A program made the position numbers and the translations under genes. From contig CADEDA010000002.1 in NCBI GenBank assembly GCA_902825965.1, forward strand, positions 1 to 64,000: a DNA stretch of 64,000 bases, written 5' to 3'. This DNA comes from an uncultured Gemmatimonadota bacterium (GTDB lineage Bacteria > Gemmatimonadota > Gemmatimonadetes > Gemmatimonadales > Gemmatimonadaceae). This document shows positions 29,083 through 32,202 of this stretch, piece by piece. A model generated the notes under the pieces. It did no database searches, was not told the DNA's origin, and saw only the letters and a list, made by a program, of their open reading frames with translations. How positions within the stretch are numbered: the first letter of the stretch is position 1; every line of letters starts with the position of its first letter.

Positions 29083-30285
29083 ATGAACACGAACTTCGTC
29101 TCCAGCCTCCAGAGCGGCCTCGACGACCTCGCCGCCAAGGGCACCCTCAAGAAGCTCAACTACCTGGCCTCGCCGCAGGCGGCCCGCGTGCAGATGGAAG
29201 GGCGCGGGGAGGTGCTGATCCTCAGCTCGAACAACTACCTGGGCCTCTGCAATGAGCCCGAGGTGGTCGAGGCCGGGATCGGCGCCCTCCGGCAGTACGG
29301 CGCGGGCACGGCGAGCGTGCGCTTCATCTGCGGCACGTTCACGGTGCATCGGGAGTTGGAGGCCGCACTGGCGCGTTTCGTCGGGACCCAGGCCGCGATG
29401 TCCTACGTCTCGGCCTGGAACGCCAACGAGGGTCTCACCGCGACGATCGTCGAGGAAGGCGACTTCGTCGTGTCCGACGCGCTCAACCACGCGTCGATCA
29501 TCGACTCCATCCGGCTCGCGAAGGCGATCACCAAGTGCACCACCGGCGTCTACCAGCACAGCGACCTCGACGACCTGGTGGCCAAGCTCAAGGCCAACCA
29601 GAGCGCGCGCCGTCGCATCATCTGGACCGACGGCGTGTTCTCCATGGAAGGCAGCATCGCGAAGCTGCCGCAGATCCTGCAGATCGCCAAGGACCACGAC
29701 GCGATCGTCGTGATGGACGACTCGCACGCCACGGGGGTGCTGGGCAGGACAGGCCGAGGGACGGCGGAGCACTTCGGCGTGCTCGGCGAGGTGGATGTGA
29801 TCACCTCGACCCTGGGCAAGGCGCTCGGTGGGGCGGCGGGGGGCTTCGTCGCGGGCCCGGCGGCGCTCTGCGACACGCTCACCCAGCGGTCGCGGCCACA
29901 GCTCTTCTCCAACGCCCTGCCGCCGACGGTGGCCGCGAGTTCGCTCGCCGCGGTGGAGTTCCTCGAATCACACCCGGAGCGTGTGACCACGCTGCGTGAG
30001 AATGCCAACTACTTCCGTGCGGCGATCAAGGAAGCCGGATTCAATCCGCTCGACGGCGAGACGCCGATCGTCCCGATCATCATCGGCGAGACCGCGGACG
30101 CGATCCGGATGAGCGAGATGCTGCTGGCCGAGGGGATCTTCGTGACCGGGTTCGGCTTCCCGGTGGTGCCGCATGGGACGGCGCGACTGCGTTGCCAGAT
30201 CTCGGCTGCGCACACGCGCGCCGACTTGGACTACGCGGTGCGGGCGATCCAGAAGGTGGGGCGGAAGGCCGGGGTGTTGCGGTAG
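29083..30285 (+). CDS. kbl: 2-amino-3-ketobutyrate CoA ligase (glycine C-acetyltransferase)
   Basis: The 400-residue protein is a PLP-dependent alpha-oxoamine synthase. The cofactor Lys is K246 in STLGKALGGA (E. coli Kbl uses K244). Other family marks are NNYLGLCNEPEVVEA, GTASVRFICGTFTVHRELE, DALNHASIIDSIRL, WTDGVFSMEGSIAKL and VMDDSHATGVLG. With Tdh it splits threonine into glycine and acetyl-CoA. The start ATG 29083 has no strong Shine-Dalgarno; the CT-rich leader precedes it. Confidence 0.97.
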   Translation: MNTNFVSSLQSGLDDLAAKGTLKKLNYLASPQAARVQMEGRGEVLILSSNNYLGLCNEPEVVEAGIGALRQYGAGTASVRFICGTFTVHRELEAALARFVGTQAAMSYVSAWNANEGLTATIVEEGDFVVSDALNHASIIDSIRLAKAITKCTTGVYQHSDLDDLVAKLKANQSARRRIIWTDGVFSMEGSIAKLPQILQIAKDHDAIVVMDDSHATGVLGRTGRGTAEHFGVLGEVDVITSTLGKALGGAAGGFVAGPAALCDTLTQRSRPQLFSNALPPTVAASSLAAVEFLESHPERVTTLRENANYFRAAIKEAGFNPLDGETPIVPIIIGETADAIRMSEMLLAEGIFVTGFGFPVVPHGTARLRCQISAAHTRADLDYAVRAIQKVGRKAGVLR

Positions 30286-30377
30286 GGTCACGCCGCTCCT
30301 TCGTCACGGCGGGCGCGCGGGGCGCGGGACGTGACGGAGCGGTTTGTCCGTCGATGCCGCAGCTCGGACAGGCGAAA

Positions 30378-30410
30378 GGGGCTCGGCGGACCGATCGTCC
30401 GCCGAGCCCC
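30378..30410. terminator. Bidirectional terminator between convergent kbl and NYN genes
   Basis: GGGGCTCGGCGGAC and GTCCGCCGAGCCCC form a perfect 14-bp stem with a 5-base loop, extended by partially complementary GCGAAA/TTCGC flanks that offer short A and T tracts on either side. It lies between the kbl stop and the NYN gene stop on the other strand, so it can serve both. Confidence 0.8.
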
Positions 30411-30435
30411 TTCGCAGTGGTTCCCTGGAGAACCG

Positions 30436-32202
30436 CTACTCCGACTTCTTCTTCCCGGCCTTCTTCGCCGCCTTCGCCTTGGGCGCCTTCTCCGCGGCCT
30501 CCGCCTTGGCCTCCGCCTTGGGCTTGGCGCCCTTCGCGGCCTTCTTGCCCTTCGCCTTGGGCTCGGCGGCCTCGGGTGTCTCCGCGGACGCGCTCAGCGG
30601 TGCGGCCGGCTCTTCGACGACCCCGAGCAGCAGCAGCGACGGCGGCACCGCCGGCTTGCCACCCGCGCGGCCGCGCGATGGCACGGAGCGCTGTCCCATG
30701 CCACGCGGTGCCGGGGTGCTCGGCGCGGCGGCCGGCGTGGCGGCGGCTTCGGCCACCGCCAACTGGTCGGCGATGGACGAGACGCCGGATGCGGCCAACA
30801 CCTCGAAGGCGTCGCCGCGCTTGCGCAGGTCCACGATGCCCACGTCGTGGGCATCCTTGAGGATGCGCGAGAAGTTCCGCTCCGAGAGCGATTCGCTGTC
30901 GCGCCCGAGGAGGCCGTGCGCCTTCACGCGCACCGTCTCGCTCGGCACCGGATCATCACCCGAGGCCACGGCGGCGACGGCGTCGCGGACGAGCGCAAAG
31001 GCCTCGTCACGCGTGAGCCGGATGCCCGCAGCGCCGATGGACTGATCGACGCTGGGACGCGGGCTGTGGCCGGGACGGCCGCGCTCGTGCCGTGGGGGAC
31101 GGTCCCCGCGTTCGGGACGCGGTGCAGCGGCAGATACGGCAGCTGGTGCCGAAACCGGTGCTCCTGCGTTGGCTGCGTCGACGGTCGCCGTGCCCTCCGC
31201 AGGCGTGCTGCCGGCGTCGCGCGGACGATCATCGCGGTCGCGCCCACGACCGCCGCGACCGCGCCGACCGCGGCGGCGGCCTTCGCGCTCCTCGCGCTCA
31301 CCCTCGCTTCGCTCGCTGCCGGGCGCCGCGACCGCAGCGGCGAGCGCCGACTCGCCAGCGATGCCGCTTGTGCCACCCTTGCCGCGCGGCGGGCCGACCT
31401 CGAGCTGGCCGTTCTCGAGCTTGTGCACGTGGAGCAGCCCCTTCTGCGAGGCCTCCATGCAGAAGCGCGAGAACTTCGACATGCCGAGGTCCTTCTCGTC
31501 GAAGGTCGCGTCGATCTCCTGCATGACCTGCTTGAGCCGGTCGGAGCGCATCACGTCGCCGTTCTTCTGCATGCGCGTGATCGCCTCGGTGACGAGCTCC
31601 CAGGGATCCCACTTCTTCGTGCCCGACTCCTCACCCGTCTTCACGAGGCCGGCGAGGGCGTTGTAGCTGTAGTACTCGTCGCAGTTCTGCACGAGCAGGT
31701 CGCTGGACGATTCCCGGATGCCGACCCCGATGACGTACTTGCCGTACTCCTTGAGCTTCAGCACCAGCGACGAGAAGTCGCTGTCGCCGGAGAGCAGGAT
31801 GTAGGTGCCGATCTCGGGGCGCGTGAACACCAGCTCCATCGCATCGACCGCGAGGCGGATGTCGGTCGCGTTCTTCTTCGACGAGCCGTAGGCCGGGGCG
31901 AAGATGAGGTCGATCGAGGACTCGCTGAGCGGCACGATGTACTGCGGGTAGCGGCGCCAGTCGGCGTAGGCGCGCTGGACCGCGACCTTGCCGGAGATGA
32001 TGGCGCTGCTGAGGAGGTTGCGGAGCTCCGTCTGCAGGTCGGAGCGGATCCCCATCGTGACGTTGTCGAAGTCGATGAGGAGGGCGGCGTTGGGCGCGTG
32101 GGGATGGGCGCCGGCCGACATGGCTTGCGGGCCCCGGTGCAACGGGGCGACCGCGGCGCGCGCTGGACGCGCGGACGCGGAGAGGTTGGAACGTGGATGC
32201 AT
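30436..32202 (-). CDS. NYN (LabA-like PIN) RNase with two LOTUS domains and basic tail
   Basis: The protein is 588 residues from ATG 32202 (ATG 32121 is an alternative start giving 561). Residues 38-185 are an NYN domain: ALLIDFDNV (Asp44, Asp46), ADWRRYPQYI, KKNATDIRLAVDAMEL and LSGDSDFSSLV (Asp140, Asp142), the acidic metal-binding set of PIN-like nucleases. Two OST-HTH/LOTUS RNA-binding domains follow, about 198-270 (WDPWELVTEAITRM) and about 397-470 (TRDEAFALVRDAVAAV...SRILKDAHDVGIVDL). Between them is an Arg/Gly-rich stretch (RGRRGRGGRGRDR). The tail from about 545 is Lys/Ala/Glu low complexity. RNA cleavage or RNA-granule-like binding is inferred from domains. It is divergent from the NtrY-like kinase. 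Confidence 0.85.
   Translation of the reverse strand: MHPRSNLSASARPARAAVAPLHRGPQAMSAGAHPHAPNAALLIDFDNVTMGIRSDLQTELRNLLSSAIISGKVAVQRAYADWRRYPQYIVPLSESSIDLIFAPAYGSSKKNATDIRLAVDAMELVFTRPEIGTYILLSGDSDFSSLVLKLKEYGKYVIGVGIRESSSDLLVQNCDEYYSYNALAGLVKTGEESGTKKWDPWELVTEAITRMQKNGDVMRSDRLKQVMQEIDATFDEKDLGMSKFSRFCMEASQKGLLHVHKLENGQLEVGPPRGKGGTSGIAGESALAAAVAAPGSERSEGEREEREGRRRGRRGRGGRGRDRDDRPRDAGSTPAEGTATVDAANAGAPVSAPAAVSAAAPRPERGDRPPRHERGRPGHSPRPSVDQSIGAAGIRLTRDEAFALVRDAVAAVASGDDPVPSETVRVKAHGLLGRDSESLSERNFSRILKDAHDVGIVDLRKRGDAFEVLAASGVSSIADQLAVAEAAATPAAAPSTPAPRGMGQRSVPSRGRAGGKPAVPPSLLLLGVVEEPAAPLSASAETPEAAEPKAKGKKAAKGAKPKAEAKAEAAEKAPKAKAAKKAGKKKSE

Follow-up and report, generated by a model that had tools for sequence, protein, structure and literature searches.

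The window analyzed here, a stretch of 64,000 nucleotides from an uncultured member of the Gemmatimonadaceae (phylum Gemmatimonadota; contig CADEDA010000002.1), carries on its minus strand, at positions 30436-32202, a gene for a protein in which an NYN domain is followed by two LOTUS domains. Our results favor the hypothesis that this protein is a housekeeping, metal-dependent single-strand endoribonuclease, which we consider the probable reading. The protein is a further member of the bacterial NYN(DUF88)-LOTUS family, which has already been described. What is new is that the gene is nearly universal in Gemmatimonadota, and that throughout the lineage it is paired with a DNA-repair gene which has been lost from the window's own genus. 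A function has been predicted for bacterial NYN-LOTUS proteins since 2010, and in the open-licence literature, as judged from titles and the starts of abstracts, we found no cellular role assigned to them. A near-universal gene that is tied to a repair gene, together with one genus that lacks the partner, provides a concrete and testable first clue as well as a natural comparison.

The open reading frame (ORF) begins with ATG and encodes 588 amino acids followed by a stop; its reality is backed by orthologs and by a conserved N-terminus, where the alignment of orthologs displays an HRGPQA motif close to the protein start. From the N- to the C-terminus the protein consists of the NYN domain, a first LOTUS domain (LOTUS1), a disordered Arg/Gly patch, a divergent second LOTUS domain (LOTUS2), a PPxLLxxGVV motif and a disordered Lys/Ala tail (Table 1). 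The first-pass annotation of this DNA had read the gene as an NYN nuclease with two LOTUS domains, an Arg/Gly stretch and a Lys/Ala tail, and Pfam, predicted fold, homology and composition bear this out. Conservation was followed in an alignment of 64 sequences, comprising the window and 63 of 79 fetched loci (designated by L numbers), nearly all of which were titled Gemmatimonadota. The NYN ORF started early enough in 77 of these loci, excluding L046 and L053; a further 12 were left out because they lay at contig ends, and L037 and L072 because of broken C-terminal frames. The 64 sequences are nearly identical from residue 36 to about residue 270 and contain further conserved blocks at about residues 388-478 and 499-529. 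Between and after these blocks the Arg/Gly patch is kept in kind, not in sequence, and the basic tail runs free. A second alignment, across orders, had 45 rows (the window, 30 of the 79 first loci and 14 of 20 further loci).

Table 1. Coordinates of the NYN-LOTUS gene and its parts in the window.
Feature	Residues	Position	Strand	Basis
NYN-LOTUS-LOTUS protein	588 aa plus stop	30436..32202	-	ORF, Pfam, alignment, orthologs in phylum
NYN domain (DUF88/LK-nuclease, PIN-like)	39-179	31666..32088	-	PF01936, E 3.8e-26; Asp44, 46, 114, 120, 140 and 142 invariant
LOTUS1 (OST-HTH), Ghxph motif GMSKF	200-270	31393..31605	-	AlphaFold2 fold, TDRD7 match, PF12872 scores of orthologs
Arg/Gly-rich disordered patch	about 300-330	31213..31305	-	Composition; pLDDT under 50 over 276-382
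LOTUS2, divergent winged helix	397-473	30784..31014	-	AlphaFold2, Foldseek, hhalign to LOTUS1
Motif block PRGMGxR ... PPxLLxxGVV	499-529	30616..30708	-	Conserved in 64 aligned sequences
Lys/Ala-rich basic tail	539-588	30439..30588	-	Composition; pLDDT under 50

The NYN assignment rests on a PF01936 match of 92.8 bits, against a cut-off of 24.2, and is accompanied by a sub-threshold match to the NCBIfam NYN model TIGR00288. A profile search of the window's genome returned a single NYN match, at the place of the window gene. Each of the six aspartates listed in Table 1 is present in 64/64 sequences, and the same six are again invariant across orders. Asp140 and Asp142 had been singled out, with correct numbering, by the first-pass annotation, which had also held that its reading would be contradicted if close homologs lacked the acidic residues; both residues are retained in every one of the 64 sequences, and none of the acidic residues is lost. 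AlphaFold2 modeled the NYN domain with low confidence (predicted local distance difference test score, pLDDT, mostly 40-70), and the VIA-align list was filled by winged helices instead. By sequence, the sole relative in the PDB is VPA0982 of Vibrio parahaemolyticus (2qip; E 2e-4 over residues 106-178), the structure from which, as set out in PMC2848206, Anantharaman and colleagues assigned DUF88 to the superfamily of PIN/NYN nucleases. The likeness is that of NYN/DUF88 domains; VPA0982 differs in being a chain of 165 residues, and the match is confined to the NYN part.

LOTUS1 is recognized from its predicted structure and its orthologs. In the window protein PF12872 (OST-HTH) stays below threshold (E 0.028, 14.7 bits against 23.8) and Cdc6_C reaches E 0.0069, both within residues 203-266. 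Among the 45 aligned members OST-HTH is found at E 0.01 in 25, and the cut-off is passed by four of five scanned orthologs from other families (L098, L107, L105 and L112; 38-46 bits), with the fifth, L095, just under it at 22.2 bits. The domain is predicted with pLDDT 90-96, in the order H-H-H-E-E with a short insert helix at 236-239, and its Ghxph motif lies in the insert between helices 2 and 3 of the winged helix. With VIA-align it superimposes on TDRD7 (3rco_A) with Z 8.3 and a root-mean-square deviation of 2.7 over 73 aligned residues. A genome search with PF12872 alone gave no match in the window's genome and none in the controls either, and is uninformative.

LOTUS2 has no match in Pfam. 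AlphaFold2 predicts a winged helix with pLDDT of about 90-96 in the full-length model, and pLDDT 90.7 with a predicted template modeling score of 0.82 for the domain alone. Foldseek ranked the LOTUS domain of human TDRD7 (3rco_B) first, with E 0.035 and probability 1.00, and also listed TDRD5, every E-value being above 0.001; by VIA-align the winged helices of ORC/Cdc6 came first (Z 9.6), above LOTUS domains. A likeness of OST-HTH to ORC/Cdc6 winged helices was noted by Anantharaman 2010, in a passage of PMC2848206. Since the fold is generic, evidence from homology weighs more. Alignment of LOTUS2 to LOTUS1 by hhalign gave E 7e-5 and a probability of 62.8. Moreover, the window's LOTUS2 matches G119:C6:166621-166860 (E 6.7e-6, 37% identity), which by coordinates corresponds to about residues 324-404 of the L112 protein, whose second domain passes the PF12872 cut-off (OST-HTH at 339-395, 37.8 bits). 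This transitive connection through L112 is the strongest. Throughout the window's family the Ghxph motif, retained by LOTUS1, has been lost from LOTUS2; ESLSERNF stands at that position in the window, and the second LOTUS domain of other orders shows GFSKF or GFPKF there. LOTUS2 of the window is thus LOTUS-derived but degenerate. Its form occurs in 154/298 Gemmatimonadota genomes and declines beyond the window's family, and several other orders possess a second LOTUS domain of the canonical kind. When the LOTUS alignments were searched against PDB sequences, no meaningful relative emerged. A helix with a conserved DQL follows LOTUS2 at 30739-30774 (residues 477-488). A C-terminal helix is reported to distinguish extended from minimal LOTUS domains; L063 keeps the DQL in the absence of LOTUS2, so that this helix may be a separate element.

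The two low-complexity regions are predicted to be disordered, with pLDDT under 50 over residues 276-382 and 501-588. R or G occupies 23 of 40 residues in the Arg/Gly patch, and the best of the 45 other gene-like ORFs in the window reaches 24. The first-pass description of an RGG-like region holds insofar as the patch is rich in Arg and Gly, but it was generous, as there is only one RGG. K and A together make up 33 of the 50 C-terminal residues that form the Lys/Ala tail, compared with at most 15 in the 45 other ORFs, so this richness cannot be ascribed to composition alone. Disordered basic parts that are conserved in kind are compatible with condensation, and equally with a simple tethering of RNA or ribosomes. 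By analogy with RGG genes, we also considered, and rejected, that the mRNA of this gene might itself form a G-quadruplex; the coding strand holds no G3 motif at loops of up to 7, and one at loops of up to 12.

In the window's family the PPxLLxxGVV block lies between LOTUS2 and the tail, and it is kept in L063, L065 and L067, all of which lack LOTUS2. A regular expression for PPxLL is loose, matching 15 of the 111 ORFs of 14 loci (7 of the 15 being NYN genes), so that weight can be given only to the conserved position of the motif. The expression also failed to match L007, L063, L065 and L067, and it misaligned L016 and L070, in whose alignment rows the motif is visible. Several orthologs of other orders carry PPPLLxGQVV-like motifs followed by a region resembling a helix-hairpin-helix (HhH). 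A C-terminal HHH_5 match at E 0.01 was obtained in 4/45 members, all outside the window's order (best E 1.1e-4), with scores that fall short of the 27 bits required by Pfam in two members listed with this match. In a sister family (L095, L103 and L108) a short, amphipathic-looking C-terminal helix, for example LFKRMSAALQKALG, replaces the Lys/Ala tail or HhH.

The NYN-LOTUS1 half was found in 276/298 Gemmatimonadota genomes and in 243/256 of those of good quality, with 72-93% identity among the matches listed. This conservation is comparable to that of kbl (mostly 71-87%) and NtrX (62-90%) in the compared loci. Many genomes outside the window's order (families f4-f9) contain two NYN-LOTUS1 matches, perhaps from a paralog or from the second LOTUS domain matching apart.

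In the window the NYN-LOTUS gene has kbl as its convergent neighbor and an NtrY-like histidine kinase as its divergent one; NtrY-like matches occur in 86/111 loci. In its relatives the next gene downstream, in the same orientation, encodes a methylpurine-DNA glycosylase (MPG/AAG, PF02245) in 63 of the 76 loci whose sequence extends for 2.5 kb or more on that side, for example in L006, L098 and L105; the identity of this gene is given by E-values of about 1e-60 in the three tested. The 13 loci without an adjacent MPG are L001, L002, L003, L019, L023, L024, L026, L027, L029, L042, L047, L070 and L096. Among 108 genomes listed for both genes, the two are adjacent and co-oriented in 96, lie on different contigs in 12, and in none stand apart on one contig. 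These figures come from the matches listed, 149 for NYN (the window's own excluded) and 150 for PF02245, of 276 and 233 matching genomes, respectively. The pair persists as the other flank changes from NtrY in the window's family to an AMP-binding enzyme in other orders, and in L006 the stop of the NYN-LOTUS gene overlaps the start of MPG. No MPG is present 3' of the gene in the window (30282-30436), nor in the window's genus, where PF02245 was found in 0/17 genomes; NYN-LOTUS is kept in all 12 genomes of this genus within the phylum sample. Titles and starts of abstracts in the open-licence literature revealed no link between NYN-LOTUS and MPG. PMC8547433, a candidate report on NYN and methyladenine glycosylase, was set aside since neither "NYN domain" nor "methyladenine" occurs in its main text, as was PMC13159725, a candidate source on DUF88, in which all matches were to DUF883. 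Homologous ORFs, one of which reads like a membrane dipeptidase, follow MPG in three families (L006 7525-8784, L097 7245-8384 and L112 2032-3081); they hint at a longer ancestral operon.

According to the endoribonuclease hypothesis, the NYN domain would cut RNA by means of its aspartate cluster, as the invariant residues and the example of human MARF1 suggest. Binding to G-quadruplex RNA has been reported for LOTUS domains, those of bacteria among them (Ding 2020, as cited in passages of PMC8331183 and PMC12247748), and LOTUS1 and LOTUS2 could accordingly be expected to select structured or G-rich RNA. The composition of the Arg/Gly patch and the Lys/Ala tail suggests that they would keep RNA, or ribosomes, close without sequence specificity, and the PPxLLxxGVV motif might dock a protein partner. 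The physiological role would presumably lie in RNA turnover or quality control. This reading should be interpreted with some caution, since three points weigh against it. The low-confidence model of the NYN domain lends no support to the predicted active-site geometry; LOTUS2, having lost Ghxph, may not bind RNA as LOTUS1 would; and the MPG neighbor in most relatives, along with the HhH-like C-terminus in some orders, hints at a task other than simple mRNA turnover, one involving DNA or damaged nucleic acid.

The last point leads to an alternative which we regard as unlikely, namely that NYN-LOTUS and MPG/AAG form one functional unit, in which MPG or chemistry produces abasic or alkylated sites and NYN-LOTUS binds the RNA or single-stranded DNA that carries these lesions and cuts it. 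The tight adjacency described above, its survival of changes on the other flank, the overlap of stop and start in L006, and the HhH-like ends outside the window's order would all fit such a unit. However, the window's genus retains NYN-LOTUS without MPG, so the nuclease works without the glycosylase and strict dependence is disfavored; five annotated proteobacterial plasmid relatives likewise have no MPG neighbor in their annotation, operon neighbors may differ in function, and the HHH_5 scores remain below cut-off in two members listed with this match. From the same evidence it could be hypothesized, with slightly less confidence still, that the pair is an ancestral two-gene lesion module of the Gemmatimonadota, whose LOTUS-guided nuclease, carrying an HhH-like end in several orders, would remove RNA (or single-stranded DNA) with alkylated or abasic sites in concert with base excision. 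If this were true, the window's genus would be a natural knock-out of the glycosylase half.

The first-pass annotation had further suggested that the basic regions could drive RNA condensation, which would make the protein a scaffold of germ-granule-like phase separation. Basic, disordered, low-complexity regions at a conserved position and two LOTUS domains agree with this idea, but we find it distinctly improbable, given the single RGG and the free variation of patch and tail sequences; moreover, Lys/Ala tails of this kind are common nucleic-acid tethers in high-GC bacteria. It is very improbable that the protein is a catalytically dead RNA-binding adaptor in which the NYN fold is retained for binding only. 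Inactive PIN relatives do exist, such as the PIN domain of SMG5 described in a passage of PMC6294520, but the six aspartates are invariant in all 64 sequences and across orders as well. An endoribonuclease remains the explanation that we favor.

Comparison with known systems places these results in context. Searches of PADLOC-DB for anti-phage defence returned no family at E 0.01 for the window protein, the NYN protein of L098 or the MPG of L006. The likeness to germ-granule or RNA-decay proteins of eukaryotes that had been proposed for the domain set stands at the level of domains, as MARF1 (Limkain b1) of animals likewise joins an NYN endoribonuclease to several LOTUS domains, and Foldseek ranks TDRD7 first for LOTUS2. 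This likeness is not a new observation, the fusion in bacteria having been published in 2010. RRM domains, as in the MARF1-type combination with NYN and tandem LOTUS domains, were absent from the window protein in Pfam searches up to E 10. The resemblance reflects shared domain ancestry, that is, homology of parts, and is no evidence of granules. Outside the phylum, an NYN protein of the betaproteobacterium Eleftheria terrae (L116) shows 32% identity in the NYN-LOTUS1 half over 83% of the query. By eye it has a LOTUS-like region, an Arg/Gly-rich stretch and a Lys/Arg/Ala tail in the same order, and the disordered parts are accordingly no special feature of the window protein; it differs in having one LOTUS-like region, no PPxLLxxGVV, and no MPG neighbor in the annotation. 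On plasmid p5 of Rhizobium binae a short NYN gene (L119, 3986-4720) lies directly beside the repABC replication genes.

The closest precedent is the work of Anantharaman, Zhang and Aravind in 2010, who, in the passages of PMC2848206 devoted to these proteins, reported proteins of bacteria that join DUF88/NYN to one or two OST-HTH domains. They suggested that these act as a standalone enzyme for RNA degradation, and proposed the bacterial DUF88-OST-HTH form as the ancestor of the eukaryotic one. The window protein shares with that family an N-terminal DUF88/NYN domain followed by OST-HTH. Compared with what those passages describe, its LOTUS2 has diverged beyond detection by Pfam, and it carries a conserved motif block and a Lys/Ala tail. 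Moreover, whereas the bacterial genes were reported there without linkage to known RNA-processing systems, the Gemmatimonadota genes, though not the one in the window, are strongly linked to MPG.
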